DNA from: Aliikangiella coralliicola
GTDB taxonomy: Bacteria > Pseudomonadota > Gammaproteobacteria > Enterobacterales > Kangiellaceae
Length of the DNA: 64,000 bases
NCBI RefSeq assembly: GCF_007004725.1
Contig: NZ_ML660163.1
Coordinates: forward strand, 140,905 to 204,904
Direction: 5' to 3'
Shown: positions 14,471 to 57,036 of the stretch, in pieces
Numbering within the stretch: position 1 is the first letter of the stretch
Layout: each line of letters begins with the position of its first letter
Made by a program: the position numbers and the translations under genes
The notes under the pieces: model-generated
Told to the model about the DNA's origin: nothing
Seen by the model: the letters and a program-made list of their open reading frames with translations, nothing else
Databases searched by the model: none

Positions 14471-14480
14471 AGTATTTTGT

Positions 14481-14948: not shown

Positions 14949-14976
14949 GCTTATAGATCAGCATTTTTCTTATAGA
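14949..14976 (+). promoter_or_regulatory. GCTTATAG box pair upstream of the M60 protease gene
   Basis: GCTTATAGA (14949-14957) and CTTATAGA (14969-14976) lie 99 and 79 bases upstream of the -24 GG of the sigma-54-type promoter. The same arrangement, with the same 99-base distance, occurs upstream of the gene at 19204. I read it as an enhancer-like binding site for the AAA+ response regulator encoded at 55190-56809; that link is inferred. Confidence 0.6.
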
Positions 14977-15045
14977 AAATAGAAATATGAGTTCTATATC
15001 TTATATTTTTCCCCTAACCCTCTGTTTATTAAATAATAATCATAA

Positions 15046-15062
15046 TTGGCACATAAATCGCT
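15046..15062 (+). promoter_or_regulatory. Sigma-54-type promoter of the M60 protease gene
   Basis: TTGGCACATAAATCGCT matches the -24/-12 consensus with GG at 15048-15049 and GC at 15060-15061, exactly ten bases between. The start codon is about 150 bases downstream. A further GCTTATAGA box lies at 15088-15096, beyond the expected transcription start. Confidence 0.72.
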
Positions 15063-15213
15063 TTATTTGACCTAGTGAAAAGCAATTGCTTATAGACGAT
15101 TTGTTATTCAGAAGATGACTATTCTGCCATCAAAATCGATGGCGGTGATAGTAATTCCGGAATTTCTTCCATTAATACAGATCGTAAAAACATTTTTGTA
15201 GTCAGGTGAATCC

Positions 15214-18200
15214 ATGAAACATTCAATCGAAAATTTCTTTCAAAACCTAGGTTTAAGAAAATCGCTATTACCTTTAATTTCCTTTTTTGCATTGATACCC
15301 TATGCAGCTGTTGCACACGGACCGGCAACTAAATATAACCAAGCGCAAGATGGTGTGATTAAGAAAAACAATAAAGTGGTTGCTCATCCACAGGTTGCAT
15401 CTAAGACTTTAGCTACCATCGACTCTAATTATCGTTTTGAAAATGATTTATCTGACGAATCTAGCCAATATGCATTAACTCTCCATGGCGACGAAAGCTA
15501 CCTGCAATCTGAAAATGGCATGGGGCTCAACATGCCTGGAAAGCGTTGGATAGATCTGCCGCTACAACTAAGTCAAGACATCGACAGAGACCAATCTTTT
15601 TATATTAGTGTTGATTTTATGATCCCGAACACCGGCATTGACGAAAGTGCCAGAGTGATAGTGAGTAATAAGACTTGGGATTATTCAGAACCCGGATTCA
15701 AAGTCACCGCATACAACGAGAAAATCGAGTGGCAAGCTGAAGGTATGCTTTTCGTCGATTTTAATATTGGGGTTGGCGACACTGAAATTGCCGCTCGCTT
15801 TTATGATATTCCAATGGATGAATGGCATACTGTTTCAGTTGACGTAGATTTTGCTGAAGAAGTGGTTTCTTTTGGCATGAACGGCAGAATATATCAGCAA
15901 TCCCTGACAGCTAATATCAATGGTAACACCATTGACCCTTCTCTTTTCATTGACTGGTTAGCAACAAGAAAAATTCGGGTTGGTGCTCACTATTCACCGG
16001 ACGGAGAAACACCGCCCTGGCACTACGAGTCTGAAATTGATGGTGGGGTAAACACGACAGTGACAGTTGCAGATTTTGTGGTCGATAACCTTATCATCCA
16101 ATCTCCCAAACCTCCAGGGGACGCTAATATAGTTCGTGCAGCACTGGTTAGTTTAACAGAACATCTTCAAGGCACAGCCACTCTTTCAGAAGCCGATCAA
16201 GAGCAACTATTAGTCAGCATTCGAGCAAATCTGGAAGGGACTAATTTTGCCGATTTTAGCTCAGAAGCAAAAGCTTTTATCGATGCTCACGCGCAATCAA
16301 ATGGTTCTCTTTATGTAATCATCAATCGGGACAATACAGATTATAGTCGATATGATGATTTCACAGCGATTTCAAAAGCCTACGTAGATTTAGGCGTGTG
16401 GATGATGAAGAGTGGTTTAACTCCCGCAAATGCTTCTGCGGCGGAAAATATCACATTCACAGAGCACTCTTACTTTCCCGGTCAGTTACCAAACAACGCC
16501 GCACGAATTGAAAATGGTTCTGCAGAAGTTTTAGCGCAATATGTGCTCGACCCTGGTTATTTAATGGGTGGTATGCAACTAAACCCGAACAGCGAACTCA
16601 CGTCATATGTGTATCGCCCTACCGGTTTTTATGCGCCTGCTGGAGAAACTGTCACCATTACAGTTGATCCCGCGCTGGTCGATTCTGGCTTACATATTCG
16701 TGTTGGTGGACAACATGAAAACCACACACTCATATCCTCGACCAATCGCTTTCCGCTTATAAGCGTCGACTACCGAATTGAAGCGGCTGAATTTGACGTT
16801 ATTAATCCGTTTGGCGGCGGCATCTATGTTCTTGTTCCTCAGGGCACAGATTTAGGATGGATAGATATTGGTATTAACAACGCCGTAAGGGCACCGTACT
16901 TTTCAACCAAAACGGGTCGTGAAACCTCGCTGGTAGAATGGAATACAATTAAACAATATCCTGGGCTTTTTGCAGAATTTGAATCTGATAAATTTGTAAT
17001 TACAGTACCGACTTCAGACATTCAAAATTTTGATCAGCCTGACGTGTTATTGGAAAAATGGGATCAGATTATGGATATTTTTCAAGTTCTCCATGGTCGC
17101 CCTCTCGAAAGAGTCAGAGCTGAAGGCTATATGTTAGATTCCGCTTCCGCTGTGGTTGGTTCTTACCCGGGAGGCTATCCAGTTACACCCGGTTTTTGGG
17201 CAGAAGGTTCAAATGGGATCACCGATGGGAATTACTCACCGTTTGGCGTGCTAAACAGTGGTGATTGGGCCGGCGGTGAAGAGTTCGCGATTATGTTGCA
17301 CGAATTGGGTCACCACCACTATGGTCGATTTATCAATGTCGGCGAACAAGAATCCTTTGTTAACGTGCCTGGGGCAGCCGTTTTTAATGAGCTATTTGGA
17401 CTCGATTATGACGAAGCTCTAGCAGTATCAGGTTATCAAAAATTTAGTCGTGCTGATGCCGCAATCGATTGGATGGTGACGCATAACTTTAGGAACGGAA
17501 ACCCTATCGGCATGGACCCTACAACAGACTTTGAACCCATTGAAACTTCATACCAAGCAAGAGGTCACGCTAAGTTTGTCGATCTCGCTGATATTTTTGG
17601 TGGATGGGAAGCCATTGGTACTATTTATGAAAAGTTCTACGTACAAGATACACTTAGCGGAACACCAGCGGATACCCAATATGGCGTTTCGCATGACGAA
17701 TTTTTATTAACCGGCTCTGATGCGCTTCAATGTAATTTGGCGAGTTTGTTTCACTTTTGGGGTATCCATCCATCAACTGACACGGCTAATCAACTATCTG
17801 CCTATCCAGCTTGTGACGGTGCACTCGAGCGAGTGACAAGCTACTTGGATCAAGCCCCTCGAACCAATGAAGATTTAACTTTGTTCCATGAAGAAAAAAC
17901 CGCATTGGGTGAAAACCAATTGAAGTTCCAAATTTATGATCAGTTACTCGAAGATTTTGATCATTCGTACGGACAACAAATTAGAGACGCTGGTGCTGCC
18001 ATTCTTGAAACATACTTTGGTGTGCAAGCGGATCAAGCGCCATCGGCACCGGTTTTACAAACCGCAAGCTTCAATCATAAAAGTTCGCAAACAACAGAAT
18101 TCTCATGGTCTCCAGCAGTCGATCCAGAAGGTCACAATTTAAAATATAGCTGGCGATTAGTCGATGCTTCTACCGGTACGGTGCTTTTATTTAAATCCTG

Positions 18201-18711
18201 GTTAGAGGGAAGTAGCGTGACATTTAACAGTACAGAGCTAAGTCAGGCACTCAATAGTTATGAGAATTTAGACAGCTCTACTACGCTCATTCAAGAAGTA
18301 ACGACTTCAGACTTATTTACTGTAGTAAAAAGTGAACAGTTAGAGTCAATCTATCGCAAAGGTAATGCTGTTTTGAGAGGCGAGGTTCTCGCAGACTTTG
18401 ATTATTCCGTATCGAGTAAAACGGTAAACTTTAGTGAGCAAGCTGTCAGTGCTAATCCTAGAAGTTACTCTTGGGACTTTGGTGACGGTAACACTTCCAC
18501 ACAATCAAACCCATCGCATACTTTTGCCGACGATGGTACTTACACTGTCACTTTAACGGTTAATGATGAGCTCGACGGCAGTGCAACAACGACTAAAACA
18601 ATTACCATTGATGCAGAGACGCAAACTCAACCTGATGAAAGCGACGGCGGCGGCGGTAGCTTCGGTGCATGGATGTTATTAGCAGGTCTTTTATTTTTTC
18701 GTCGAAGGTAA
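15214..18711 (+). CDS. Secreted M60-like metalloprotease with PKD domain and GlyGly-CTERM
   Basis: The 1165-residue protein has a signal peptide (about residues 1-33) and a LamG/concanavalin-like domain (about 70-300). A peptidase M60 region follows (about 480-800): its N-terminal beta part has the PAGETVTI and NPFGGGIYVLVPQG motifs. The zinc site HELGH is at 696-700, with a likely glutamate ligand at 711 or 713 (GEQESFVN), consistent with the HExxH-x(8-28)-E gluzincin pattern. A PKD domain (SYSWDFGDG, about 1070-1145) precedes the GGGGS/hydrophobic/FRRR GlyGly-CTERM tail. M60 enzymes cut mucin-like glycoproteins, so a host- or algal-glycoprotein role is plausible but inferred. The start has a good AGGTGA site. 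A sigma-54-type promoter and GCTTATAG boxes precede it. Confidence 0.88.
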   Translation: MKHSIENFFQNLGLRKSLLPLISFFALIPYAAVAHGPATKYNQAQDGVIKKNNKVVAHPQVASKTLATIDSNYRFENDLSDESSQYALTLHGDESYLQSENGMGLNMPGKRWIDLPLQLSQDIDRDQSFYISVDFMIPNTGIDESARVIVSNKTWDYSEPGFKVTAYNEKIEWQAEGMLFVDFNIGVGDTEIAARFYDIPMDEWHTVSVDVDFAEEVVSFGMNGRIYQQSLTANINGNTIDPSLFIDWLATRKIRVGAHYSPDGETPPWHYESEIDGGVNTTVTVADFVVDNLIIQSPKPPGDANIVRAALVSLTEHLQGTATLSEADQEQLLVSIRANLEGTNFADFSSEAKAFIDAHAQSNGSLYVIINRDNTDYSRYDDFTAISKAYVDLGVWMMKSGLTPANASAAENITFTEHSYFPGQLPNNAARIENGSAEVLAQYVLDPGYLMGGMQLNPNSELTSYVYRPTGFYAPAGETVTITVDPALVDSGLHIRVGGQHENHTLISSTNRFPLISVDYRIEAAEFDVINPFGGGIYVLVPQGTDLGWIDIGINNAVRAPYFSTKTGRETSLVEWNTIKQYPGLFAEFESDKFVITVPTSDIQNFDQPDVLLEKWDQIMDIFQVLHGRPLERVRAEGYMLDSASAVVGSYPGGYPVTPGFWAEGSNGITDGNYSPFGVLNSGDWAGGEEFAIMLHELGHHHYGRFINVGEQESFVNVPGAAVFNELFGLDYDEALAVSGYQKFSRADAAIDWMVTHNFRNGNPIGMDPTTDFEPIETSYQARGHAKFVDLADIFGGWEAIGTIYEKFYVQDTLSGTPADTQYGVSHDEFLLTGSDALQCNLASLFHFWGIHPSTDTANQLSAYPACDGALERVTSYLDQAPRTNEDLTLFHEEKTALGENQLKFQIYDQLLEDFDHSYGQQIRDAGAAILETYFGVQADQAPSAPVLQTASFNHKSSQTTEFSWSPAVDPEGHNLKYSWRLVDASTGTVLLFKSWLEGSSVTFNSTELSQALNSYENLDSSTTLIQEVTTSDLFTVVKSEQLESIYRKGNAVLRGEVLADFDYSVSSKTVNFSEQAVSANPRSYSWDFGDGNTSTQSNPSHTFADDGTYTVTLTVNDELDGSATTTKTITIDAETQTQPDESDGGGGSFGAWMLLAGLLFFRRR

Positions 18712-18780
18712 AGACATTTAAGTATAAAGAGTGCTCTGTTAATAATCGGTATTCTGTTAATAAATCTATCAAAACTAAAA

Positions 18781-18809
18781 GGGCAGCGGATTTAATGCTG
18801 CCCATTTTA
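18781..18809 (+). terminator. Terminator of the M60 protease gene
   Basis: The stem GGGCAGC / GCTGCCC (18781-18787, 18797-18803) with a 9-nt loop is followed by ATTTTAG. The T tract is modest. Confidence 0.6.
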
Positions 18810-19008
18810 GCTCATATTCAATCACGGTTTGTGGCTCCTACCAACGCAGGGTATAGATTAATCAATTTTGTAAGAAAGGGCATGTTTGGTATTAGTAACA
18901 TGCTATCCTCTCCTCCCTTCACTTTCTCCCTTCATTTAGCCCCACTCTGTTACTTGTTAATACCGTTAGCAGTCGCTCAACTGAGGTTTTTAGGTTTAAG
19001 CATTTAGT

Positions 19009-19036
19009 GCTTATAGATCAGCATTTCTCTTATAAA
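19009..19036 (+). promoter_or_regulatory. GCTTATAG box pair upstream of the beta-helix/Calx-beta gene
   Basis: GCTTATAGA (19009-19017) and CTTATAAA (19029-19036) stand 99 and 79 bases before the -24 GG, the same spacing as upstream of 15214. The surrounding sequence is recognisably homologous to 14939-15120. Confidence 0.6.
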
Positions 19037-19105
19037 AAGTACGCATATCAGTGCCATCAGTTAAGTTTTTTAGCTAACTCTTTGTTTATTAAAGAAAATT
19101 CAAGA

Positions 19106-19122
19106 TTGGCACATAAATCGCA
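19106..19122 (+). promoter_or_regulatory. Sigma-54-type promoter of the beta-helix/Calx-beta gene
   Basis: TTGGCACATAAATCGCA has GG at 19108-19109 and GC at 19120-19121, exactly N10 apart. Sixteen of 17 bases equal the promoter at 15046-15062. A third box GCTTATAGA follows at 19158-19166. Confidence 0.72.
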
Positions 19123-19203
19123 ATAAATGAGCAAAACGAACTAATTAAAAAGCAATCGCTTATAGACGATTTGCTATTCAAAAGAAACGATGTAGGAATT
19201 AAT

Positions 19204-22200
19204 ATGTCATCCCCAATAACACTCAAGAAAAGTCTTTTAGCTTTAGCGGTTAGCCAAGCGCTATTGGTTGGTTCAACAGAGGCCGCAACCATTACGGTAA
19301 CCAGTACTGATGATACCACTGTTGATGATGCGGTTTGTACGCTACGCGAAGCCATCATTTCAGCCAACAATGATGATAACAGTGCGGAAGATGACTGTGC
19401 TGCTGGCAGTGGCGACGATACCATTGTGTTTGACAACAGCTTAAGTGGAAGTACTGTCACTTTAGCCTCTAATTTAACAAGAATCACAGAAAATACCGCT
19501 ATCGACGGGGATATTGATGGTGATAATACCCCTGATATCACAATCGATGGCGACGATAGCTATACCGCAATTTCTTCCAGAAACGTTAGTGGTAAAACCA
19601 TTGATCTAAACGGATTGACGATTACTAATACAAGAAACAGCGGGAGTGGTTCAGCTGTTTATATAGACGCGAATTCACTTAGCACTTTGACATTGAGCAA
19701 TTCGGTGATTACTGCTAATAATTGTGGAGGAAGGGGCTGCGGTGTTTTTGGTGCTATCACAAACGTTACAATCGACAATTCAACCATCAGTGAGAATACG
19801 AGTTCAGGTAGTTTTATCAATGGTGGTTCCGGAGCAGGTATTCGAGTAAGTAGAGGTGATTTAACCGTTAATAACAGTACGATTTCTGGTAATCGAGGTA
19901 CACGGGGAGCAGGAATCCATGTTTTCCATAGTGCTAACGGTAATCACATAACCATTAATAACTCAACAATAACTAATAATTACTCATCCGACACAGTCGG
20001 CGGGGCATACCTCGGCGCTAATAATGTAACAGTTACCAATAGCACTATTTCAGGCAATAGTGCTGCTAGCACAACAGCCTACAGTGGTGCCGTAGGTGGA
20101 AATGCCCCTTTTGCTCAAGGCTTGCACGTATATCAACCAAGTAACGCGACAATATCCAATACGGTTATAGCAGGAAATTCACTGGATTGTACTAGGGAAG
20201 GTAGTACCCCAATAACCCAAGTGAATAATTTAATAGAAGACGGTGGCACAGGAGATGGAACCTATGCTACGAGTTATTATTGTGGTACCCCCGCTTTAAG
20301 TGGCGATCCCAATTTAGGAGCGTTGGCTGATAACGGCGGAGATACCTATACACTCGCCCCCGCTTACACAAGCAGCGTGATCGATGCTGGAGATAACACT
20401 AATTGTGGTATCGGCTTAGCCACTGATACCGATCAACGCGGTTTAGCTCGTGACGATGGCAACTGTGATATCGGTGCGGTTGAATATCGCCCACGTTTTT
20501 CATGGGATAATGAGAATTACAGCGTCAATGAAGGCGATGGTACGATAACCTTGACGGTTAATTTTACTGGTAGCAATGATGCCACTACCGTCGACTATGC
20601 GACTAGCGATAATACAGCCACTTCAGGTGATGATTATACGGCGGTGACTAACACCTTATCTTTTGCCGCCGGTGTGACTTCACAATCCATTACTTTGAAT
20701 ATCGCTGAAGATAGTATTTTTGAAGGGGATGAAGATTTTTCTGTCACCTTATCGAATCCCGCCTATAGCTCAAGCGGTACACATAGCTTAGATATCGATG
20801 AAACATCAGCCGCCACAGTGACCATTGAAGAGAATGATTTAATTGCTGTCAGTAGCAGTAATTTGAGTACCGGTGAGAGTGGTACTGATAGCTCATTTAC
20901 GGTGGTTTTAAATAGGGCACCTACCAGTAATGTCGATATTACACTGACGAATAATGACACCACGGAAGGGCTGCTTGATGTTAGTTCACTGACTTTTACA
21001 ACCAGCGATTGGAATATGCCACAAACAGTCACAGTGACGGGAGTTGATGATGATGTTGTTGATGGCGATATCACCTATTTAATTAATCTGGATGCAAGTA
21101 GCGCTGATGGTGATTATTCTGGCCTTTCAGGCCCTGACGTTTCAGTGACTAATATGGATGAAGGGGAAACCGTTGGCATTAGTGTTAATAAAGGTACTTT
21201 ATTAACCGCTGAAGATGGCACCAGTGATAGTTTCACTGTTGTGCTTGATTCCGAGCCGACCAATGATGTGACGATTACATTAACCAATGGCGATAGCACT
21301 GAAGGTAGTTTAAGTACTTCGAGCTTAACTTTTGACTCAGGCAATTGGTCTATTCCGCAAACAGTCACAGTGACAGGGGTTGATGATGACATTGTTGATG
21401 GCGATATCACTTATTTAATTAATCTGGATGCAAGTAGCGCTGATAGCAATTATTCTGGACTTTCAGGCCCTGATGTTTCGGCGACTAATGAGGATGAAGG
21501 GGAAACTGTTGGCATTAGTGTCAATAAAAGTACTTTATTAACCTCTGAAGATGGCACCTCAGATAGTTTTACAATGGTACTTGATTCAGAACCAACCAAT
21601 GATGTGACGATTACATTAACCAATGGCGATAGTAGTGAAGGCACCTTAAATACTTCAAGCTTAACTTTTAACTCAGGCAACTGGAGTACCCCGCAAACGG
21701 TCACAGCTACCGGTGTCGATGATGCCATCGACGATGGTGATCAAGCGTATAGCGTGAGTTTTGGTGTGAGCAGTAGTGATGCGAACTACAATGGTTTTTC
21801 AATCGCCAATGTCACCGTGTTAAACAACGATAATGAATCATCAGGGATCTCTTTGAGTAAAAGTACCTTAGTAACTTCAGAGGACGGCACCAGTGATAGC
21901 TTTATGGTTGTGCTGGATTCCCAGCCAACGAGTGATGTCACTATCACATTAACGAATGGCGATAGTACTGAGGGGACATTAAGTGCTTCGAGTTTAACCT
22001 TCACCTCAAGTAATTGGTCAACCGCACAAACAGTCACAGCTACCGGCGTAGATGATGCCATTGCAGATGGAGATCAAGCGTATAGCGTGAGTTTTAGTGT
22101 GAGCAGCAGTGATGCGAATTTTAATGGTCAATCAATTTCTGATGTCACAGTTCTTAATACCGACAATGAATCATCAGGCATTACATTAAGTCAAAGCACT

Positions 22201-25200
22201 CTTGTCACTTCAGAAGATGGTACCAGTGATAGTTTTACCGTTGTGTTGGATTCCCAGCCAACCAATGATGTGACAATTACATTAACCAATGGCGATAACA
22301 CTGAAGGCACATTAAATACTTCGAGCTTAACTTTTAATTCAAGCAATTGGAGTACGGCTCAAACAGTTACAGCGACCGGTGTGGACGATGCGATAGAAGA
22401 TGGTGATCAAGCTTACAGCATCAGTTTTAGCGTTAGCAGTAGCGACAATAATTTCAACGGCCTTTCAATTGCCGATGTCACCGTATTAAACAACGATAAT
22501 GAATCATCGGGGATTTCTTTGAATAAAAATACCTTAGTGACTTCAGAAGATGGTACCAGTGATAGCTTTAGTGTTGTGCTGGATTCAGAGCCAACGAGTG
22601 ATGTGACCATCACATTAACCAATGGTGATAACACTGAAGGCACGTTAAGTACTTCGAGCTTAACTTTTAATTCAAGTAATTGGAATGCAGCTCAAACGGT
22701 CACGGCGACCGGTGTGGACGATACGATAGAAGATGGTGACCAGGCTTATAGTATCAGTTTTAGCGTCAGCAGTAGTGATGCGAATTTTAATGGTCAATCA
22801 ATTTCTGATGTAACAGTTCTTAATACCGATAATGAATCATCAGGCATTACATTAAGTCAAAGCACGCTAGTCACTTCAGAAGATGGTACTTCAGATAGCT
22901 TTACGGTTGTGCTTAATTCTGAGCCCACCAATGATGTCACGATTACTTTAACTAATGGTGATAACACCGAAGGCACCTTAAGTACTTCAATCCTTACTTT
23001 TAATTCAAGCAATTGGAGTACGGCTCAAACGGTTACAGCTACCGGCGTGGATGATGCGATTGCAGATGGTGACCAAGCTTATAACATCAGTTTTAGTGTG
23101 AGCAGCAGTGATGCAAACTTTAATGGTCAATCAATTTCTGATGTGACAGTTCTTAATACCGACAACGAATCATCAGGCATTACCTTAAGTCAAAGCACGC
23201 TAGTCACTTCAGAAGATGGTACTTCAGATAGTTTTACTCTAGTACTGAATTCTGAGCCTACCAATGATGTGACAATTACCTTAATTAATGGCGATAGCAC
23301 CGAAGGTACATTAAGCACTTCAAGCTTAACTTTTAATTCAAGCAACTGGAGTACCGCTCAAACGGTCACAGCGACCGGTGTGGATGACGCCATTACAGAT
23401 GGCGACCAAGCTTATAGCGTGAGTTTTAGTGTCAGTAGTAGTGATAATAATTTCAATGGTCTATCAATTGCCGATGTAACAGTTCTTAATACCGATAATG
23501 AATCATCGGGGATTTCTTTGAGTAAAAATACTTTAGTGACTTCAGAAGATGGCACCAGTGATAGTTTTACGGTTGTGCTGGATTCTGAGCCAACCAATGA
23601 TGTGACGATCACTTTAACCAATGGCGATAACACTGAAGGGACATTAAGTACTTCGAGCTTAACTTTTAACTCAAGCAATTGGAATACCCCTCAAACAGTC
23701 ACGGCTACCGGTGTAGACGATGCGATCGAAGATGGCGACCAAGCTTATAGCATTAGCTTTAGTGTCAGCAGCAGCGATGTGAACTTTAACGGCTTATCAG
23801 TCGCTGATGTCACTGTTTTAAATAACGACAATGAATCATCAGGCATTACATTAAGTCAAAGCACTTTAGTGACTTCTGAGGACGGCACCAGTGATAGCTT
23901 TACCGTGGTACTCGATTCCGAGCCTACCAATGATGTCACAGTGACATTAACTAATGGCGATAACACTGAAGGCACATTAAATACTTCGAGTTTAACCTTT
24001 ACCTCAAGCAATTGGTCAACCCCACAAACTGTCACTGCGACCGGTGTGGACGATAATATCGATGATGGTGATCAAGCTTACAATATTGCGTTGATTGTTA
24101 GCAGTATGGATAGTCTGTTTGATGGTTTATCTGTGAGCGATGTAAAAGTTCTAAATTTAGATAATGAAACTTCCGGTATTGAGGTCAGTAAAAATACTTT
24201 ATTAACTTCGGAAGATGGAACTAGTGATAGTTTTTCCATGGTTCTAAGCTCTGCTCCAACAGCCGATGTGACTATTAACTTAACCAATACAGACGCGACT
24301 GAAGGTATATTAAGCACATCAAGTTTAACCTTTACTTCAAGCAATTGGTCAACAGCGCAAACCGTGGCAGTGACTGGCGTAGATGATAGTATCAATGACG
24401 GCGACCAAGCTTATAGCATTAATTTTTCAGTGAGTAGTATTGATAGTCAATTTAATAACCTACCACTTGCAGGAGTCACGGTATTAAATACTGACAATGA
24501 AAACTCAGAAATCCGTATCAGCAAGAACACGCTCGTTACTTCAGAAGGCGGCAACCAGGATCAATTTTCCGTTACGTTGAATTCTGAACCAACTGCTGAG
24601 GTCACTATTACTTTAACCAATGACGATCCAAGCGAAGGCGCTTTAAGTGTTTCTAGTATGACGTTTGATGCCAATAATTGGCAGACAGCGCAAACCATTA
24701 CCGTTAGCGGTGTTGATGATAACCTGAATGATGGCGATATTGCTTACAACATCAGTTTTGGCGTGAGTAGTCTTGATACTAATTTCGATGGACAGTTGCT
24801 ATCGAACGTAACCGTGATCAATTTAGATAATGAAAGTAGTAACAATAACAATGGCTCTGATAAAACGATCGAAGTGAGCAAAACGCTGCTATCGACTAAT
24901 GAAGATGCCACTAGCGATAGTTTTGAAATCGTTCTTAGTTCAGCCCCCACCGATGAAGTGATTATTACTTTGACCAATAACGATCGGACAGAAGGTACAC
25001 TGAGTACAACGAGCTTAACTTTTTCTCCTGATAATTGGTCAACGGCTCAAACAGTCATGGTCACAGGTGTTGACGATATTCCTGTCGATGGTGACATTGC
25101 CTATAGCATTAGTATTACCGCTAGCAGTGATGATGCCGATTACAATGGCCTACCAATCAGTTCAGTCACCGTCATCAACAATGATAACGACTTTGCATCT

Positions 25201-25284: not shown

Positions 25285-25320
25285 AATCTAGTTTCTTAAG
25301 TGGATTAGTTACGATGAAAT

Positions 25321-26936: not shown

Positions 26937-27214
26937 AGTGGAACTAGTACTTTAAGAAGTTAATGGAGGACAGGTTAAAAATGTGAATCTAAAGCATTAG
27001 GAATTGACCTGAGCAGTGTACAAATGACTCTAACAATATAGAATTCAAATTTAAGCGTCTACCTAAACGGCATTCTCATGGCATATAGTTGAGTCATTTT
27101 ATCGTATAACTACTTTTATGGGACAAAACCAAAAAGCAGATACTATTGTGAAATAAATTTAGCACAATGGGTATCAATTTAAAGTATTTTTCGAATATTT
27201 ACTCTCAATTGAAA

Positions 27215-27775: not shown

Positions 27776-27784
27776 TTCGCTGAC

Positions 27785-29926: not shown

Positions 29927-30018
29927 TTTTCTCCTTCTAAAGGTCGCAGGATTAATTTCATAGAGCACTATCCCGAAATACACTGATACAAAATTTCAGT
30001 GCATCATTATTATTAATA

Positions 30019-36851: not shown

Positions 36852-36921
36852 GATTTCGCTTATCCTTTTCCACCTATCGGCGATGGGTAATAGCATTTAT
36901 ATTCAACAATGACACCTACAC

Positions 36922-36938
36922 AGCTAGAACCATGCCAA
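36922..36938 (-). promoter_or_regulatory. Sigma-54-type promoter of paralogue A
   Basis: On the minus strand TTGGCATGGTTCTAGCT has GG and GC exactly ten bases apart. It sits 71 bases upstream of the chosen start codon and is matched by an equivalent element for the paralogue at 42635-42651. Confidence 0.66.
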
Positions 36939-36973
36939 AATAAAAAGCTATTAATTTTCAATAAGTTAAGAAA

Positions 36974-37021
36974 TCTATAAGCAATAGATTTATCGGTAAT
37001 TGCTTATAAAATTCTATAAGC
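36974..37021 (-). promoter_or_regulatory. Cluster of CTATAAGC boxes upstream of paralogue A
   Basis: TCTATAAGC (36974-36982), GCTTATAA (37002-37009) and TCTATAAGC (37013-37021) lie about 38-85 bases beyond the -24 element. CTTATAA also occurs near 37044-37050. Distances agree within one base with the cluster upstream of the gene at 42564. Confidence 0.62.
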
Positions 37022-42564: not shown

Positions 42565-42634
42565 ATTTTTGCTTATCCTTTTTCACCTATCTACTGCGGG
42601 TGATAGCAATTTCATTTAACAATGAGGTTCGCAA

Positions 42635-42651
42635 AGCTAAATTTATGCCAA
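42635..42651 (-). promoter_or_regulatory. Sigma-54-type promoter of paralogue B
   Basis: On the minus strand TTGGCATAAATTTAGCT has the GG-N10-GC spacing and stands 71 bases upstream of the start codon, the same distance as for paralogue A. Confidence 0.68.
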
Positions 42652-42685
42652 CAATTAAAACATTTATATTTCAATAGGTTAGCAA

Positions 42686-42735
42686 TCTATAAGCAATATT
42701 TTTACGGTAATTGCTTATAAGAAAGCTTTATAAGC
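42686..42735 (-). promoter_or_regulatory. Cluster of CTATAAGC boxes upstream of paralogue B
   Basis: TCTATAAGC (42686-42694), GCTTATAA (42713-42720) and TTTATAAGC (42727-42735) lie about 37-86 bases beyond the -24 element. Order and spacing equal those upstream of paralogue A. Confidence 0.62.
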
Positions 42736-43083: not shown

Positions 43084-43106
43084 ATAATTTTTTTCTCTAA
43101 CGACAG

Positions 43107-49100: not shown

Positions 49101-49538
49101 AGCCAAACCGTTAAAAATGCCACTCACACTATCAGCAGCATCATTATCAATTACTGTGAAAGTATCGCCGGCATTTGCTGTATAGTTAGTGGTATCGATA
49201 TCTAAAGTCGCCGAGCCCAAACTAACGCTGCCTGTAATATCAAGTTGATCGTATTCACTACAAGCAGTACTGCCTTCGATTTCAATTTCTAACGAACCGC
49301 CGCTGCTTAAGGATAAATTCCCCGCGGCAATACATCCAGGACTAGAACCCGGCGCAATAGCACCGCCAGATTGTAAATTGACAGTACCACCGCTAACGGT
49401 GCCACTGCCTTTTAATTTACCGCCGCTTTGAATATTTAAATTACCGGCGAGCGCAGAATGGCAACCAATAAAGCCAACCAAAAAAATAATTTTTTTCAGA
49501 GAATTTAAAAACTTTTTATTCAGGCTAAGACATCTCAT
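43107..49538 (-). CDS. Giant multi-Ig surface protein with GlyGly-CTERM, last gene of fibre operon
   Basis: The 2143-residue protein has a signal peptide (about residues 1-31). A beta-strand repeat region of autotransporter type follows ([23 protein letters not shown]). Three MBG-like repeats ([13 protein letters not shown] and similar) precede nine DUF5011-like and three HYR-like Ig domains ([29 protein letters not shown]). TSP3 calcium repeats, five Calx-beta domains and the tail [21 protein letters not shown] complete it. It is a long rod-like surface protein with many Asp-rich calcium sites. Its ATG overlaps the previous stop by one base (TAATG), so it is translationally coupled to the S74 fibre genes. 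The Calx-beta/TSP3 end is homologous to paralogues A and B. It may anchor or present the fibres; this is inferred. Confidence 0.9.
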
Positions 49539-51295
49539 TATTTAAGTCCCACCTGGTTTGCTAACTGCTCAATTTCTGCTTCGAGTTGCGCAATTTCTTC
49601 GTCAATTTCTACGCTTTCTGCATCGAGTTGTTGTAGTGCTTGAATTAGTAAAGGGGTGACTTCAACATAGTTAACCGATTTAATTCCTTGGTCATTTTCA
49701 GTCACTAATTCAGGTAAAACTGCTTCAACTTCCTGAGCGATAAATCCATAATGCTCACGATCATCGCGATGCAATTCTTCTTTCCATCGATACTTTACGC
49801 CTCGCAATAATGAAACTAATTGCAAGCCATTTTCGATTGGTGTGACCGCTGTTTTTAAACGGGCATCGGAAGCTAAAGTGAGATCGCCGCTAATAGTTAA
49901 ATCACCATTGTTGGCTAAAGTAAGTGCAGCTATGTAACTACCACTAGCGTCGTTGTTAAAAGTAAGATCGCCGTTATCTGCAGCGCTGATTTGCCAGCTG
50001 TCGCCAGCGTCTTCGCCATTGTCGGCAGTTAATGTCCAGGTGGCTGCGCTGTCGATATCACCTAAAGTTGTGAAGGTTTTTGCGATGGAGTCTGCAAATC
50101 GATAGCTGCTACTGCCAAGAGCGGTTTGTCCATCACTGCCAGGATTCCAGGCAACAGTACTATCATTACCGAAAACAACCGTATTATCAGCGTGGCTAAC
50201 AGCACCATAACCGATGACAACAGCGTTTGAATGACTTACAGATGAGTTGGCACCGATGACTATTGAACCATTATTAGCAGTCGAAGTTGCTTTAGCGCCA
50301 TAACCGATCACGATACTATCATTGACTTCTGCTACTGCTCTAGCACCCATCACAGTTACACGACTTATATCAAGATTGGAGGCTGATGGCATTCCCGTAT
50401 CTGTACCGCGATCTCCTAGAAACCCGGTTTCAATATTTTCATCAGTATCGGTCCACTCTGCAAAGTCCGCGAATGCCCCTAAAACCACATTGTCTGACCC
50501 GGTTCGATTTGTCGAGCCCGCGCCGACTCCAAGGTAAGTGTTCCGGCTTGCCGAATCAGAAGTTCCGGTCCTGCCGTTTTCTCTTCCAGCCAAGGTTCCT
50601 ACAAAGGTGTTGAAGTGTCCACTCTCGGTATTTTCTCCTGCGCGCGCTCCCACCATGGTATTGAAGTTACTTAAATCAGCATCGGCCCCTGCCTGTTTTC
50701 CAATAAAAGTATTTCGGATACCTGCTCCTAGTTCTTCACCTGCCTCCATACCAAAGGCAGTGTTCCCCCAGCCATCATGACTATCAGCAGCAAAACCTCG
50801 CAAAGCATTAAAACCCAGCGCAGTATTTCGATAGCCTGACTGATTGTTTCTACCCGCATCCTCTCCAAAAAAGGAATTGTCATCACCAGTTGTGTTGTCC
50901 TCACCAGACTCTTCACCAATAAAAGTATTGCGCGAGCCTGTAGTATTGGCATAACCAGATTTTGTACCAAAGAAAGAATTATCTTCTCCCGTCGAATTGT
51001 TGTAACCGGCCTGAGTTCCGACAAAGCTATTACGAACACCGGTGGTGTTGCTATAACCACTTTGATAACCAACAAACACATTTTCGTCGACCTGATTGTT
51101 ATAACCGGCCTGATTGCCAACTAAGGTATTTCCACTTTGAGTCGTTGTATTACGACCGGCATCAACCCCGATTAAAGTATTTTTGTCTCCAGTTGTTATT
51201 GTGGCATTAGAATTAAGCTCAGTATTATCTGCAGCGACATTAAGCGACAGGCATATTAAACTTGTAGCCAACCAGTATGGTTTATTAAAGTTCAT
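49538..51295 (-). CDS. Secreted fibre-like protein with YadA-head-type repeats and S74 chaperone domain (third of three)
   Basis: The 585-residue protein has a signal peptide (about residues 1-22). An array of 12-14-residue repeats follows ([40 protein letters not shown]), of the type forming trimeric beta-rolls in YadA-like heads. A beta-rich neck follows, then a C-terminal intramolecular chaperone (peptidase S74) domain. The self-cleavage site is SDARLK with Ser476 and Lys481, followed by RGVKYRW and [18 protein letters not shown] coiled-coil end (about 555-585) fits the trimeric chaperone. In phage tail spikes and related proteins this domain drives trimer folding and then cuts itself off. 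There are no phage structural genes nearby. The start lies 11 bases after the previous gene. Confidence 0.87.
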
Positions 51296-51306
51296 ACTTC
51301 TCCCCC

Positions 51307-53106
51307 TTAATTTCGCTTGATGACTAGTGCAGCTTCTATGGCATCTAATCTTTCGTCGAGCGAATCTAATTGTTGCTGCTGCTGATTTTGTTTAACATTC
51401 AATTCACCGCCGGCTTGTGCCAGTACCGGTAAAAGCGCCACATAATTGATAGACTTCATGCCGTCGCTTCTGGTCGAAACAGTTTCCGGTAAAATAGTTT
51501 CGACTTCTTGAGCAATTAAACCTGAGTGCTGTCGTTCATCACGGAAGGTTTGTGGACGCCAGATATAACTCACTGGACGTAATTGGTTGATCAAGTTTCG
51601 AGCGTCGTCAATTGGAACAATATTTTTTTTGAAGTTGGCGTCGGAAAGTACATTGACGTCGCCGGTGACAGTTAGCCCACCGTCATTGCGTAAGCTAATT
51701 AAAGTTGATTGACTGCCGCTAATATCATTATTGAAAGAAAAATTGCCATTATCTGCAACGACAACTTGCCAACTATCACCGGCATCCGACGCAGCATCTG
51801 CAGCAATAGTTAATGCGGCTGAACTGCCACTATCAGCGATAGTAGTAAGCGACTGACTGAACAAATTAGTAAAGCGATAGTCAGTGCGCCCTAATGTAGT
51901 CACTCCATCGGCATGGGGATGCCAACCGGTAGTGCTGTTATTGCCTATCACTGCGATATTATCGCCATGACTAGAAGCGCCATAACCTATGACAATTGAT
52001 TTCGTATGAGTCGCGTTAGCTCCAGCACCAATAACAACACTGCCTGTGCCTGACGCATTAACGTTATAGCCAACTGCTAAGGCAAAATCAGCGCTAATAT
52101 TTCCATAGGAACCTATCAAGGTTCCATTGCTAATGTTTGAACTTGATGGTGTCAATCCGGTCGCCGTGCCACTAGCAGATTTAAAAATCGTTTCGACCTG
52201 TGCTTCAGTTAATTGGCTCCAATCGGTAAAATCTGCGAAAGCACCAATAACAACATTGCCATCACCTGTTTGATTATTGGCGCCTGCTGCTGCACCAAAA
52301 AATGTGTTACTTTTCGCACCACTGGCAGACTCCAAACCCGACAATGTTCCCACCATTGTGCTAGCTTCTTCGCTTGTCGGATAGCTATTGTCTTGTACAT
52401 TTTCTCCAGCACGAGCACCGACTAAAGTATTGTAGGTACCGTCTCCCAAAAAATATCCCGCTCCTTCACCTACAGCAACATTTCCTTCGCTGCTGCCAAT
52501 GCCATACGCAGCCCGAAAACCGAAGGCAACTGTCTCAGTCGGTAACGCGTCTGAAACATTTCCATAAAGTGACTCACTACCAATGGCCACATTGAAATTC
52601 CCGGAAATGTTATACGCAGCTCGATATCCTAAGAAGCTGTTGTAAGGAGAGGCATTAGTTCCATCATTAGCGTAACCGGCACTACTTCCAGCTATCGCGA
52701 GACCGCGTTGGTTTGAAGCATTTTGGCCGGCTTCAAAACCGAAAAGAGTGTTGTAGCTATTTGTATTATTGAGTCCGGCACGTGTACCAATAGCGGTTAT
52801 TCCGTATATCGATTGATCTTGAGAAGCTGCCTGGTATCCAAAAATTACCCCCTCACCAGAATATAATACGGCTTGCCCAGCCTCTGCTCCAACAAAGACA
52901 TTCTCACTTCGAGTACCAATTGATGCGCCGGCACTTTCACCAAGTAACACATTATGATCTCCGGCGGTAATCGAAGCACCGGCATTTGTACCATAGAGGG
53001 TATTTTCTGCAGCCACCTCAAAAGTCAGTGCTGAAATTATTAACAAACCAGCGGCAAAACCTCTCGGCAACACATGAAGTTCTCGTTTTGAGACAAGTGA
53101 TTTCAT
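51307..53106 (-). CDS. Secreted fibre-like protein with YadA-head-type repeats and S74 chaperone domain (second of three)
   Basis: The 599-residue protein has a longer basic N-terminus with signal peptide (cleavage near TFEVAA). It then has head repeats (NTLYGTNAGA, NVLLGESAGA, NVFVGAEAGQ, NTLFGFEAGQ), less regular than in its neighbours. The S74 domain has SDANFK (Ser488, Lys493), RPVSYIW and HSGLIAQEVETILPETV, and ends in a Gln-rich coiled coil. The Arg-Leu to Asn-Phe change next to the catalytic Ser is the main difference from its paralogues; the Ser-Lys pair is kept. Its ATG overlaps the previous stop by four bases (ATGA), giving translational coupling. It probably forms homotrimers, or mixed trimers with its operon partners. 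Confidence 0.86.
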   Translation of the reverse strand: MKSLVSKRELHVLPRGFAAGLLIISALTFEVAAENTLYGTNAGASITAGDHNVLLGESAGASIGTRSENVFVGAEAGQAVLYSGEGVIFGYQAASQDQSIYGITAIGTRAGLNNTNSYNTLFGFEAGQNASNQRGLAIAGSSAGYANDGTNASPYNSFLGYRAAYNISGNFNVAIGSESLYGNVSDALPTETVAFGFRAAYGIGSSEGNVAVGEGAGYFLGDGTYNTLVGARAGENVQDNSYPTSEEASTMVGTLSGLESASGAKSNTFFGAAAGANNQTGDGNVVIGAFADFTDWSQLTEAQVETIFKSASGTATGLTPSSSNISNGTLIGSYGNISADFALAVGYNVNASGTGSVVIGAGANATHTKSIVIGYGASSHGDNIAVIGNNSTTGWHPHADGVTTLGRTDYRFTNLFSQSLTTIADSGSSAALTIAADAASDAGDSWQVVVADNGNFSFNNDISGSQSTLISLRNDGGLTVTGDVNVLSDANFKKNIVPIDDARNLINQLRPVSYIWRPQTFRDERQHSGLIAQEVETILPETVSTRSDGMKSINYVALLPVLAQAGGELNVKQNQQQQQLDSLDERLDAIEAALVIKRN

Positions 53107-54845
53107 CCCTGCTCTCCTCTTTGCGAAGAGACTTTCGATGTCTGTAATTCAAAAAACCGCTGAAGTTTCAATCTCCTTGCTTTGAGTTGTTCCAACTGTG
53201 CGCGACGGGATTTATTTTGCTCCGCAAGTTCTTTTAATGACTCGACCAAAAAGGGGACCAGGGCAATGTAGTTGACAGTTTTACGACCACTTTTTTCTGT
53301 TTTAACGATATTAGGAAAAATGGATTCTACTTGCTGTGCAATTAAGCCTAAATGTTTCGAAGTGCTGTCACTTTCTTTAATAAAATCATAATGCACAGCT
53401 GATAACCGAGAGGTTGCTGACAAAGCCTTATCAATCGGATTAACTTTCTTTTTTAAGCGTGCATCTGAATTTAGGTAAAGGACGCCAGCAATTGTTAAAT
53501 CGCCACTTTTGTTGATACTCAAAGTGTTTGACTGACTACCACTGATGTTGTTGCTGATATTGAATTGGCCATCATCTACTGCAGAAATTTGCCAAGTATC
53601 TCCATTATCCTCAGCAGCATCAGCGCTAATTACCCAACTGACAGTATCATCGGTATCAGCTACACTCACAATATTAGCGCTAATCAGGCCGCTAAAACGA
53701 TAATCACTATTGCCTAAACTGACCGTGGCATCACTCGCGGCATCCCAACTTAGTGTGTCACTATCACCTAACAATAAGGAGTTGGAATAGATACTCGTAC
53801 TGCCCAAACCAATGTTGATAGATTGATCATCAGAAACAACTCCCCCAAGCGAAATGGCTCCCGCAGCTTTTGCATCGGTATATTGACCTAATGCTATCCC
53901 CTCATCCCGCGTAACTTCAGCACCAATCCCAACTCCAACCGCCTTAAAAATTTCACTTTCTGACGCATCTGCACCTGTCCCAATAAATAAATTATCTGCT
54001 CCTGTCTTATTATCATAAGCAGCGAACGCACCTAAGGCCGTATTACGGTTCGCACTATTAGCACTCGAGCTCCGGTCATTTGTCCATCCAGCCTGAGCCC
54101 CAACAAAAGTGTTATAATCTGTATCAGCAAGGCTAGCTCCTGCTTTAACCCCAACAAGTGTATTGAAGTTACCTGCTGTTATGAAATTAATATTAGAACC
54201 AAGCAGTGTATTGTGAACACCGCTTGTAAGATAATGTGCAGCGTCATACCCTATTACAGAATTACCATAACCTGTTACTTTCGACCCATTTGCAGCCCCC
54301 CGCAACGCACTGTAACCAACAGCAGTATTATCGTTTCCATCGGTAAGGCCTGCCCCAGCAGTATAACCAAATGCTGTATTGTTACTCCCAGCCGTATTGT
54401 CTTCTCCTGACCTATAACCAAAAAAAGTATTGTCTGAACCTGTAGTGTTAGCTAAGCCCGATTCATAACCAAAAAAAGTATTGTCCGAGCCACTGGTACC
54501 GCTTGTACAGTTTGCTAATCCTGTCTGAAAACCTGCAAAGGTGTTATCGGAACAAGCTACATTGACTAACCCAGATTGGTGGCCCAGAAAAACATTATCG
54601 CTGCCACTCGTGTTTGCCATACCTGCTTGAGCCCCGATAAAGGTATTGTTATCTGAGGTAACAATAGATTTTCCAGCACTTTCTCCAATCAAGGTGTTGC
54701 CTTCGGCACTTGTACTCAAATTTGCACCGGCATCAGTTCCCAAAGTCGTGTTGTCAGCAAAAACAAATCCACTCGTTGTCGCCATCAACAAAGCCATCGA
54801 CAAACGCCGCGGCGAAAACTTATTTTCACTATTCATATGAGCCAC
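53103..54845 (-). CDS. Secreted fibre-like protein with YadA-head-type repeats and S74 chaperone domain (first of three)
   Basis: The 580-residue protein opens the four-gene operon. It has a signal peptide (about residues 1-30) and very regular head repeats (NTLIGESAGK, NTFIGAQAGM, NVFLGHQSGL, NTFFGYESGL, NTFFGYRSGE). An insertion with two cysteines (NVACSDNTF, GLANCTSG) could disulfide-link the head. The S74 domain has SDARLK (Ser460, Lys465) and HLGLIAQQVESIFPNIV, followed by an Arg/Lys-rich coiled coil longer than in the other two. A sigma-54-type promoter and CTATAAGC boxes lie upstream, so the whole operon should be controlled together. Trimer formation and self-cleavage are family knowledge; the surface role is inferred. 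Confidence 0.87.
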   Translation of the reverse strand: MAHMNSENKFSPRRLSMALLMATTSGFVFADNTTLGTDAGANLSTSAEGNTLIGESAGKSIVTSDNNTFIGAQAGMANTSGSDNVFLGHQSGLVNVACSDNTFAGFQTGLANCTSGTSGSDNTFFGYESGLANTTGSDNTFFGYRSGEDNTAGSNNTAFGYTAGAGLTDGNDNTAVGYSALRGAANGSKVTGYGNSVIGYDAAHYLTSGVHNTLLGSNINFITAGNFNTLVGVKAGASLADTDYNTFVGAQAGWTNDRSSSANSANRNTALGAFAAYDNKTGADNLFIGTGADASESEIFKAVGVGIGAEVTRDEGIALGQYTDAKAAGAISLGGVVSDDQSINIGLGSTSIYSNSLLLGDSDTLSWDAASDATVSLGNSDYRFSGLISANIVSVADTDDTVSWVISADAAEDNGDTWQISAVDDGQFNISNNISGSQSNTLSINKSGDLTIAGVLYLNSDARLKKKVNPIDKALSATSRLSAVHYDFIKESDSTSKHLGLIAQQVESIFPNIVKTEKSGRKTVNYIALVPFLVESLKELAEQNKSRRAQLEQLKARRLKLQRFFELQTSKVSSQRGEQG

Positions 54846-54962
54846 CCGCTACAGTGGTAATTGCTCGACAACATAAACTTTGCCCTCTAAACACTCTTTT
54901 CTCTCGAAAAATTTTGACAAGATCGATTGGTATAAGCGATTGATTTCAATGAGTTCGAATAT

Positions 54963-54979
54963 TGCGATATATATGCCAA
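54963..54979 (-). promoter_or_regulatory. Sigma-54-type promoter of the fibre operon
   Basis: On the minus strand TTGGCATATATATCGCA has GG-N10-GC spacing and lies about 120 bases upstream of the first start codon. A GCTTATA box (minus strand, 54931-54937) lies downstream of it, as in the promoters at 15046 and 19106. Confidence 0.68.
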
Positions 54980-55038
54980 CTTTAATTTTTATTGACTAAA
55001 CAATTAGTTAGATAAAAATTGATGTCGTGATAGGAATT

Positions 55039-55066
55039 TCTATAAGAAAAAGACTGCTCTATAAGC
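55039..55066 (-). promoter_or_regulatory. CTATAAGC box pair upstream of the fibre operon
   Basis: TCTATAAGA (55039-55047) and TCTATAAGC (55058-55066) lie about 62-89 bases beyond the -24 element. The two are 19 bases apart, about two helical turns, as in the pairs at 14949 and 19009 (20 bases). Confidence 0.6.
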
Positions 55067-55189
55067 GCTGATTGCTTAGATAGCTTGGCTTAGCAGAAAA
55101 ATTTGATGGCAGTCCGGCCGTGATCAGCAGATATCAGGAATGGCTCGAAGATAAGTTGGGCGTTAACACCCGCTAATGAACTTGTAGTC

Positions 55190-56809
55190 TTAGTGAGCAG
55201 CTACGGTATAGTAAGTCCAACGTCGTTGCCCTTGTTTGTTTAACAAACCTTCTTTATGGAGTTTTTTTAATAGATAAGAAGCGCGACTATGATCAACTTC
55301 CAGGACTTGTTGCGCAATCGTATTATCAATTTTTCCATGGGTTTTGGCATACTCGATAATTAAATTTTCTTGAGAATTAGCTTTAAGGTGTTTCCAGTTA
55401 ACCGATTCTGACGTTTGAATTGATGCGTCTTCAACTTGCTCTTGCGCTAAATCGACATCACTCTCCGCTCCAGAGACACTATTCTCTCCAGCCAGACTTT
55501 GTCGCGGCTCTTCCATAAAATGTAAGTGCCTTTCAGTGATCATTTGGCCCCGACTAGCGATCAGCGCATATTCAATAAGATTCTTAAGCTCTCGTACATT
55601 TCCTGGAAAATGATATCGACCGATTGCACTTAGCGCTTGCGGTGAAATCTCAGGTTGTTCCCGCCCCATTTGCTCACCAAGCAACACTAAAAAATGCTCC
55701 GCTAATAATTCGATATCACCCTGTCTCTCTCTTAACGGCGGCAAGGAAACTTGATAGCCAGCTAATCGGAAAAACAGATCTTGTCGGAACTCTTTAGTTT
55801 GCAGTTTGCTGCGCAAATCCAAATTGGTTGCGGCAATCACTCTGACATCAACCTTACGGCTTTGCCGGCCGCCGATTGGCGTCACCAAACCATCTTCTAA
55901 AACCCGTAATAACTTAGCTTGCAGCGACAAAGGCATATCGCCAATTTCGTCTAGAAATAACGTTCCGCCATCCGCTTGCACAAAATAGCCGCTTCTATCT
56001 GTCGTCGCACCGGTATAGGCGCCTTTGGTGTGACCAAATAATTCTGCATCGGCAAGTTCCGCTGGTATTGCGGAACAATTGACCGCCACAAAAGGTTTGT
56101 TACTTCGGGCACTGCCATAGTGAATAGCGCGTGAAATCAACTCTTTGCCCGTGCCGCTTTCCCCTAATACCAATACATTCGTTTTTGGCGCGGCCTGCAA
56201 GTTGCGGACTTCTTCAATCAGCTCTCGTGTTGCCAGGCTTTGGCCAACAAATGCATCTATTTTCCAATGCTCCGCTTCCCTTCGGGTTATTGTCGATAGC
56301 CTTTCATCAGCAAGGTTAAGTGCTTGCTCGGCCTGTTTACGTTTGCTGATTTGTTCTTGCAGTTCTGTATTTAACCGCTCTAAAAGCCGGTTCTTTTCCA
56401 TTAACATTTGCTGCTGATGGCGAATTGTCAGATGCGCCTTGATACGTGCCAAGACTTCTTCTCGCTGTAACGGCTTGATAACGAAATCGATGGCGCCGGC
56501 TTTAAAGCCTTCCAGTCGTTTGTCGATGTCGGCAAGCGCACTCATAAAAATGACCGGAGACTGCTCGGTTTTTTTATTCGCTTTTAATTCAGCGCAAACT
56601 TGATACCCATTTAGCCCGGGCATCATCACGTCTAGCAATACAATATCCGGCGTTCTTTCGAAGGCGAGAGAAAGCGCTTGCTCGCCATCGGTAGCAACCA
56701 TAAGTTCCAAACCACTATCAGAAAGATAATTAACCAAGATGTCTAAATTATCCGGCTGATCATCGACGATTAGCACCACGGCAGAAGTAGAATTCTGCGG
56801 AATATTCAT
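55190..56809 (-). CDS. Sigma-54-dependent response regulator with REC, AAA+ and winged-helix output
   Basis: The 539-residue protein has a receiver domain (residues about 10-125, phosphoacceptor Asp60 in LLDVMMPG, acidic pair Asp16-Asp17, FVIKP lysine) and a coiled-coil linker (about 130-180). The sigma-54 activator AAA+ domain (about 185-420) has Walker A GESGTGKE, the sigma-54-contacting loop GAYTGA (variant of GAFTGA), Walker B GGTLFLDEIGD and the arginine-finger region LFFRLAGY. The C-terminus (about 455-539) is not a Fis-type helix-turn-helix. Instead it looks like a winged helix (DNTIAQQVLEVDHSRASYLLKKLHKEGLL). Phosphorylation should let it bind upstream sites and open sigma-54 promoters. 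The region upstream has four GCTTATA boxes, suggesting autoregulation. Its natural partner is the kinase at 60306. It is functionally analogous to PrsR, but orthology is not shown. Confidence 0.9.
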   Translation of the reverse strand: MNIPQNSTSAVVLIVDDQPDNLDILVNYLSDSGLELMVATDGEQALSLAFERTPDIVLLDVMMPGLNGYQVCAELKANKKTEQSPVIFMSALADIDKRLEGFKAGAIDFVIKPLQREEVLARIKAHLTIRHQQQMLMEKNRLLERLNTELQEQISKRKQAEQALNLADERLSTITRREAEHWKIDAFVGQSLATRELIEEVRNLQAAPKTNVLVLGESGTGKELISRAIHYGSARSNKPFVAVNCSAIPAELADAELFGHTKGAYTGATTDRSGYFVQADGGTLFLDEIGDMPLSLQAKLLRVLEDGLVTPIGGRQSRKVDVRVIAATNLDLRSKLQTKEFRQDLFFRLAGYQVSLPPLRERQGDIELLAEHFLVLLGEQMGREQPEISPQALSAIGRYHFPGNVRELKNLIEYALIASRGQMITERHLHFMEEPRQSLAGENSVSGAESDVDLAQEQVEDASIQTSESVNWKHLKANSQENLIIEYAKTHGKIDNTIAQQVLEVDHSRASYLLKKLHKEGLLNKQGQRRWTYYTVAAH

Positions 56810-56828
56810 AGGTTGCCCAGAGTTTATA

Positions 56829-56880
56829 CGCTTATAGTTGCCTCTAGTATAAGCGAAAACGCTTATAAAAACCTATAAGC
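56829..56880. promoter_or_regulatory. Four GCTTATA boxes as two dyads in the divergent regulatory region
   Basis: CGCTTATAG (56829-56837) faces TATAAGC (56848-56854), and GCTTATAA (56861-56868) faces CTATAAGC (56873-56880). Both pairs are inverted, so the natural site may be a dyad GCTTATA-N(6-10)-TATAAGC. The cluster is 20 bases from the regulator start and could act on both divergent units. Confidence 0.65.
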
Positions 56881-56970
56881 AGAATCCAATTTGATAAATA
56901 AATCGATGAAATATTAATGCTATCTACTTGATTCAAAAGAAAAATAAATTGACACATTCATGAATTAAAA

Positions 56971-56987
56971 TTGGCTTGATAATTGAA
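56971..56987 (+). promoter_or_regulatory. Weak sigma-54-type promoter candidate for the signalling operon
   Basis: TTGGCTTGATAATTGAA keeps the -24 TTGGC but has TTGAA instead of TTGCA at -12, so the second half of the GG-N10-GC pattern fails. It lies 50-66 bases upstream of the start at 57037. Confidence 0.35.
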
Positions 56988-57036
56988 GGTTACTCAAGAC
57001 CAATGATTTAACGATAAAACATGTTTTTGATTACTT

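Follow-up and report, generated by a model that had tools for sequence, protein, structure and literature searches.

What controls the large surface proteins encoded side by side in one part of the Aliikangiella coralliicola genome? The window, a stretch of 64,000 nucleotides (assembly GCF_007004725.1, contig NZ_ML660163.1, positions 140,905 to 204,904 of the forward strand), holds an island of five surface-protein units: an M60 peptidase-domain protein, a beta-helix unit, two paralogues (A and B) and a fibre operon. A gene for an NtrC-type response regulator lies at 55190-56809 (positions are those of the window). This regulator, which has a predicted winged helix, probably binds boxes with the core CTTATA, which precede five sigma-54-type promoters by about 45-100 bp, and would thereby activate the five units. 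The positions of the boxes and promoters, their restriction to the island among the sites searched and the recurrence of the box next to related regulators of other genera are direct observations; binding and activation are predicted from the sequence.

Boxes and Promoters of the Island

The original prediction had placed a promoter with GG-N10-GC spacing and a cluster of upstream boxes before each unit, and four further boxes in the divergent region beside the regulator gene. All five promoters and the four boxes were found at these places (Table 1). Every promoter carries TTGGCA(C/T) with the GG-N10-GC spacing, hence a -24 element of the TGGCA type; the weights used for scoring promoters were set by us after the sigma-54 consensus.

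The word GCTTATAR occurs 22 times in the window, compared to 4.18 times expected from shuffled sequences, and none of 100 shuffles reached 22. Fourteen of these matches are intergenic, and all fourteen stand either in one of the five promoter regions or between the regulator gene and the divergent operon. The eight coding matches comprise an overlapping pair (16755-16764), one at 60382 and five inside the tandem repeats of the beta-helix unit gene (22744-24416), where they are spaced by multiples of 333 bp. The words in these repeats inflate the plain count and were excluded from the operator tally. With a box matrix, all 16 window sites scoring at least 14 bits fall in the same promoter and divergent regions.

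Counted from the T preceding the GG, the boxes are located at -98 and -79 in both the M60 and the beta-helix promoters, the former with a weaker CTTATA core at -48, and at -88 and -69 in the fibre promoter; a direct repeat of 19-bp period is common to these three. Paralogues A (-84, -72 and -45) and B (-85, -70 and -44) have an inverted box pair plus a single box, with a weaker core at -115/-113. A further box is present 41-51 bp downstream of three of the five promoters (M60, beta-helix and fibre) and could serve in looping or in repression across the promoter.

These downstream boxes also fit a different explanation, namely, that the regulator is mainly a repressor or autorepressor at the boxes and that another activator opens the promoters, the more so as boxes adjoin the regulator's own gene in the window with no clear sigma-54 site. 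It is nevertheless unlikely: the boxes accompany GG-N10-GC sites at the distances of an activator, and all 17 aligned proteins retain the Walker motifs and the GA(Y/F)TGA loop, along with D16, D17, D60 and K112.

A Regulator with a Predicted Winged Helix

The regulator matches the receiver (PF00072) and AAA+ (PF00158) families above cut-off, which agrees with the original prediction of an AAA+ response regulator with a GAYTGA loop. The 16 aligned relatives are 58-75% identical to it. The receiver and the AAA+ domain are common to NtrC, AtoC and other Fis-type activators; unlike these, the regulator has no Fis match in Pfam at 0.001, the C-terminal piece alone gives none at E-values up to 10, and the protein stays below the cut-off of each of the 25 NCBIfam models shown. 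The circuit had been proposed to be PrsR/RpoN-like. A PrsR identity of the regulator is not supported, as it scores 304 bits with the PrsR model TIGR02915, for which the cut-off is 502.6, and a winged helix is predicted in place of a Fis domain.

The C-terminal piece yields weak winged-helix and MarR matches in Pfam, all below their cut-offs. Its structure, predicted from 25 sequences with a mean pLDDT of 88, consists of three helices followed by two strands, and the top Foldseek matches are winged-helix DNA binders (AspA, PapI, MarR and ArsR-type), the best with an E-value of 7.2e-4, the sole one under 0.001. A sequence search of solved structures with the same piece gave a best E-value of only 0.64, and the model of the whole protein, of low confidence (pLDDT 65.1), was not used. 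Judging by the C-terminal model, winged helices can occur in response regulators of the NtrC type. The predicted recognition helix of the regulator (H-x-RASYLLKKLH) is nearly invariant in close relatives and drifts in distant ones; hence, a conserved DNA site is predicted.

Boxes next to Related Regulators of Other Genera

A profile search with the C-terminal alignment over 84,980 species genomes found 30 loci, among them loci of Thalassolituus, Shewanella, Oceanobacter, Bowmanella, Algicola, Gilvimarinus, Pseudoalteromonas and Colwellia; some are metagenome-assembled genomes labelled as other phyla. Short words were counted in 27 of them, leaving out L061 (a near-duplicate of L057), L063 (truncated) and L075 (distant); the count was also made without the window and without L077, which matches L046. 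For L046, L056, L060 and L065, the start positions were assigned manually.

In the 250 bp upstream of the 27 relatives, GCTTATA has 40 copies in 6,750 bp, compared to 33 in 374,231 bp of the rest, a 67-fold enrichment. The 7-mers found in most loci are CTTATAG and GCTTATA itself, each in 16 of the 27, and the leading 8-mers are CGCTTATA (14 loci) and GCTTATAG (13 loci). In the 300 bp downstream of the relatives, GCTTATA is enriched 14-fold (10 copies). The exact word is present upstream in 15 of the 18 loci with a homologue of the TonB-dependent receptor and in one of the nine without. The box core was first seen in the window and is shared by the matrix and the short words; the ranking of the words in other genera is its independent check.

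The relatives have more than one gene in common, and since binding of the boxes by the regulator is predicted, a different, host-encoded factor might bind them, the boxes adjoining the regulator merely by travelling with the island. This appears very unlikely. The response regulator of the divergent operon has no DNA-binding domain, locus L066 has five boxes beside the regulator in the absence of the receptor operon, the predicted recognition helix is near-constant in close relatives, and box pairs are rare elsewhere in the A. coralliicola genome.

The distribution of the regulator is sporadic: relatives were present in two of 40 genomes of the family and in two of 295 drawn from the order, the own genome being counted in both (at most 36 and 20 first-look candidates, respectively, were scored per genome). 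None was found in the six genomes of the same genus that were searched, nor did the viral contigs searched contain a relative of the C-terminal domain. G217, the sole match besides the own genome among the 295, was discarded as a held-out locus: it is probably the same genome as L049 and brings no new evidence.

Promoters and Targets in the Relatives

Sigma-54-type sites led by a box are also encountered in the relatives. In 29 of the 30 loci (without L061), 15 of the 87 GG-N10-GC sites, distributed over 11 loci, are preceded by a box at a distance of 15-160 bp, while random placement gave a mean of 1.7 and a maximum of 8 in 2000 draws. The mirror control gave one such site, N9 spacing none and N11 spacing one.

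As in the window, boxes and a sigma-54 site follow the regulator in L046, L047, L049, L052 and L064. Four of these targets are YHYH proteins; that of L047 is a protein of 2186 residues with a GlyGly-type tail recognizable by eye. The gene right after the regulator encodes a YHYH protein in five of six relatives examined. In L073, boxes and a sigma-54 site are located further downstream, before a gene truncated by the end of the contig. Boxes lead a YHYH protein gene and its small neighbour in L046 and L049; homologues of both are encoded in the window as well (27215-29983). In the upstream stretches read there for the YHYH and TIGR03032 genes (25440-29983), no CTTATA was found.

In L048, L049 and L051, a sigma-54 site with an upstream box points toward the divergent response-regulator gene; in L066, such a site points toward another divergent gene. 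This suggests that, in those relatives, the regulator would also switch on its own sensory operon, in a positive feedback. The claim that the regulator controls the five units together is supported as to the pairing of regulator and box, retained in other genera, and as to the layout of box and sigma-54 site; it had omitted the divergent sensory operon. In L060 (2144-2261) and L062 (2123-2250), boxes followed by a sigma-54 site stand at genes with an Lcl_C domain and a lipoprotein-like start, beyond the kinase gene; targets can hence be separated from the regulator by the sensory operon.

Boxes across the Genome and the GlyGly-CTERM Proteins

As the original prediction had proposed, the complete genome was scanned with a box matrix and a sigma-54 pattern. 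The strict pattern TGGCAY-N5-TNGCW, which weaker promoters could escape, has 66 sites compared to 18 for its backward control. The 200 bp upstream of all 66 were scored with a matrix trained solely on other genomes: boxes of at least 12 bits precede five of them, which are exactly the five window promoters, and none of the other 61.

The box word by itself is not rare. GCTTATAR occurs 347 times in 7,044,713 bp, or about 3.2 times per 64 kb, and its backward control word is commoner (1001). The perfect dyad GCTTATA-N6-TATAAGC is present at two places in the genome, both in the window (37002-37021 and 56861-56880); allowing up to two mismatches, it is found at 25 places, with a higher count for the backward control. 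For two box-pair patterns, the island holds six of eight matches and four of eight places, the window making up 0.9% of the genome. The backward controls of these patterns have 32 and 25 matches and exceed the counts of the pairs, so that the clustering is informative and the number is not. All of the outlying pairs are more than 10 kb away from any listed TIGR03501 GlyGly-CTERM tail.

A global regulon of GlyGly-CTERM genes, under a circuit of the PrsR/RpoN type, had been envisaged for this locus. In its favor, a GlyGly-CTERM-type protein is encoded in every one of the five units; three of the tails pass the TIGR03501 cut-off, and those of paralogues A and B were recognized by eye. To this extent, the prediction is supported. 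The general regulon is not: 16 of the 19 tails above cut-off in the genome belong to genes outside the box units, the searches for sigma-54 sites and for box pairs, with upstream regions not individually read, gave no candidate at those 16 genes, and the next genes of the relatives are mostly of the YHYH type. Together with the low score against the PrsR model and the 61 sigma-54-pattern sites that have no box of at least 12 bits, this makes such a regulon extremely unlikely. Because of the outside tails and the lack of candidates near them, the circuit is most likely local, serving a subset of the surface proteins. One of the outside tails lies in the window itself (gene 58-2214, 17.7 bits).

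The Divergent Sensory Operon

Next to the regulator, and divergent from it, is a conserved operon (57037-61892): the first gene encodes a response regulator and the next three a TonB-dependent receptor, a YfiR-like protein and a histidine kinase (Table 1). YfiR-like homologues adjoin the receptors of most relatives. In three relatives examined, a GGDEF domain stands behind the receiver of the response regulator; it is absent in the window, and short versions as in the window are present in L050, L055 and L056. From its position, the histidine kinase is likely the partner of the regulator.

A second copy of the 3' part of the kinase gene exists in the same orientation, 47.6 kb away (13198-14526 and 60810-62148). 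The copies are 93.9% identical over 1340 columns, the left one lacking the 5' part and broken by an in-frame stop, and they flank the surface-protein island on both sides. An IS66-type transposase reading frame (62265-63995) adjoins the right-hand copy, in keeping with the sporadic distribution.

Table 1. Features of the surface-protein island and its presumed control genes in the window.
Feature	Position	Strand	Remarks
M60 unit promoter region	14949..15095	+	boxes 14949, 14968; TTGGCAC...GC at 15046; downstream box 15088
M60 peptidase-domain protein	15214..18711	+	PKD domain; GlyGly-CTERM tail above TIGR03501 cut-off
Beta-helix unit promoter region	19009..19165	+	boxes 19009, 19028; TTGGCAC...GC at 19106; downstream box 19158
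Large choice-of-anchor/Calx-beta repeat protein (beta-helix unit)	19171..25284	+	GlyGly-CTERM tail above TIGR03501 cut-off
Paralogue A, Calx-beta/Glug protein	30447..36896	-	GlyGly-type tail by eye; not listed by TIGR03501 search
Paralogue A promoter region	36921..37021	-	boxes 37014, 37002 (perfect dyad), 36975; TTGGCAT...GC at 36938
Paralogue B, Calx-beta/Glug protein	37348..42564	-	GlyGly-type tail by eye; not listed by TIGR03501 search
Paralogue B promoter region	42634..42735	-	boxes 42728, 42713, 42687; TTGGCAT...GC at 42651
Fibre operon	43107..54845	-	S74-chaperone proteins 53103-54845, 51307-53106, 49538-51295
Giant Ig/Calx-beta protein of fibre operon	43107..49538	-	GlyGly-CTERM tail above TIGR03501 cut-off
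Fibre operon promoter region	54929..55066	-	boxes 55059, 55040; TTGGCAT...GC at 54979; downstream box near 54930 (minus strand)
Regulator	55190..56809	-	receiver, AAA+ sigma-54 activation domain (GAYTGA), C-terminal predicted winged helix
C-terminal 72 residues of regulator	55193..55408	-	predicted winged-helix DNA-binding domain; predicted structure and Foldseek, Pfam weak
Four boxes between regulator and divergent operon	56830..56880	.	perfect dyad at 56861-56880; boxes at same place in relatives
Response regulator	57037..57450	+	receiver only
TonB-dependent receptor	57638..59689	+	homologue in 18 of 27 relatives' loci
YfiR-like (DUF4154) protein	59714..60313	+	weak match, 20.3 bits, below Pfam cut-off of 24.9
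Histidine kinase	60306..61892	+	homologues in relatives' loci

Proposed Mechanism and Points against It

In the proposed mechanism, the TonB-dependent receptor and the YfiR-like protein would inform the histidine kinase, which would phosphorylate the regulator. The regulator would then assemble on paired boxes, loop to RNA polymerase with RpoN (the genome has one rpoN gene) and spend ATP to open the promoter. Through the boxes between its gene and the divergent operon, it may tune its own supply.

Several observations weigh against activation from these boxes. The five promoters amount to about three independent cases, because paralogous promoter regions are alike: those of the M60 and beta-helix units are 75% identical over 195 bp, and the upstream regions of paralogues A and B, 79% over 575 bp. 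The divergent operon of the window has no proper sigma-54 site, only a degenerate one at 56972 with GA instead of GC. Among the relatives, exact GCTTATA is absent upstream in 11 of the 27; in eight of these 11 loci, the regulator stands behind a kinase gene or the GC content is at least 64%, and L052 has CTTATAG variants in its place. L072 has a YHYH gene and a box and no scored promoter, and L054 has boxes after the regulator, again with no scored promoter, and a convergent next gene. The training of the matrix took in 18 of the 29 loci used for the promoter test. In the own genome, weak box-like words precede two of the 61 other sigma-54 sites, the best there, with scores of 11.9 and 11.1. 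Finally, a composite pattern (CTTATA, a gap of 51-81 and a sigma-54 site), scanned in 18 genomes in the forward box orientation only, gave 10 matches in the own genome, five of them in the island, compared to nine for the backward control, and 51 compared to 63, no excess, in the 17 other genomes together. A wide regulon is hence not visible.

Comparison with Known Systems

The PrsK/PrsR system of the PEP-CTERM genes is described (PMC1569441) as consisting of a kinase and a response-regulator-type sigma-54 activator of the Fis family, with a motif about 63 nt before the -24/-12 promoter of targets that carry C-terminal sorting signals. The window has the same kinds of components. It differs in its activator, a predicted winged-helix protein that fails the PrsR model; in its box, CTTATAG, compared to a motif ending in TTTACA; in its local target set; and in a partner operon with a TonB-dependent receptor (PMC1569441). 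Judging by its sequence, the circuit appears to work like PrsK/PrsR but is not a member of that system.

One precedent for a winged-helix enhancer-binding protein was found, DVU0151 of Desulfovibrio vulgaris, a sigma-54 activator of which the orthologues partly match a winged-helix model instead of Fis (PMC4641369). By that description, it is set apart as a one-component protein with a GAFSEA loop and transport targets, whereas the regulator of the window has a receiver, a GAYTGA loop and surface-protein targets. No description of the present system was found among the matches listed in the open-licence PMC literature.

A further-reaching interpretation, somewhat short of an even chance, is that of a scattered and previously undescribed signalling module. 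In such a module, the receptor, the YfiR-like protein and the kinase would sense an extracellular compound and act on two outputs. One would be the response regulator, to which a diguanylate cyclase domain is attached in relatives; the other, the winged-helix sigma-54 activator, would through CTTATAG repeats turn on the module together with an exchangeable set of neighbouring surface proteins.

A regulator family and its likely DNA code were obtained together from the sequence, and binding and activation are testable in relatives, such as Shewanella salipaludis and Bowmanella dokdonensis. For control of the NtrC type, the circuit would represent a variant with a deduced operator, of which binding and activation are predicted. 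It also gives access to surface proteins that the cell perhaps produces only in response to some environmental signal.

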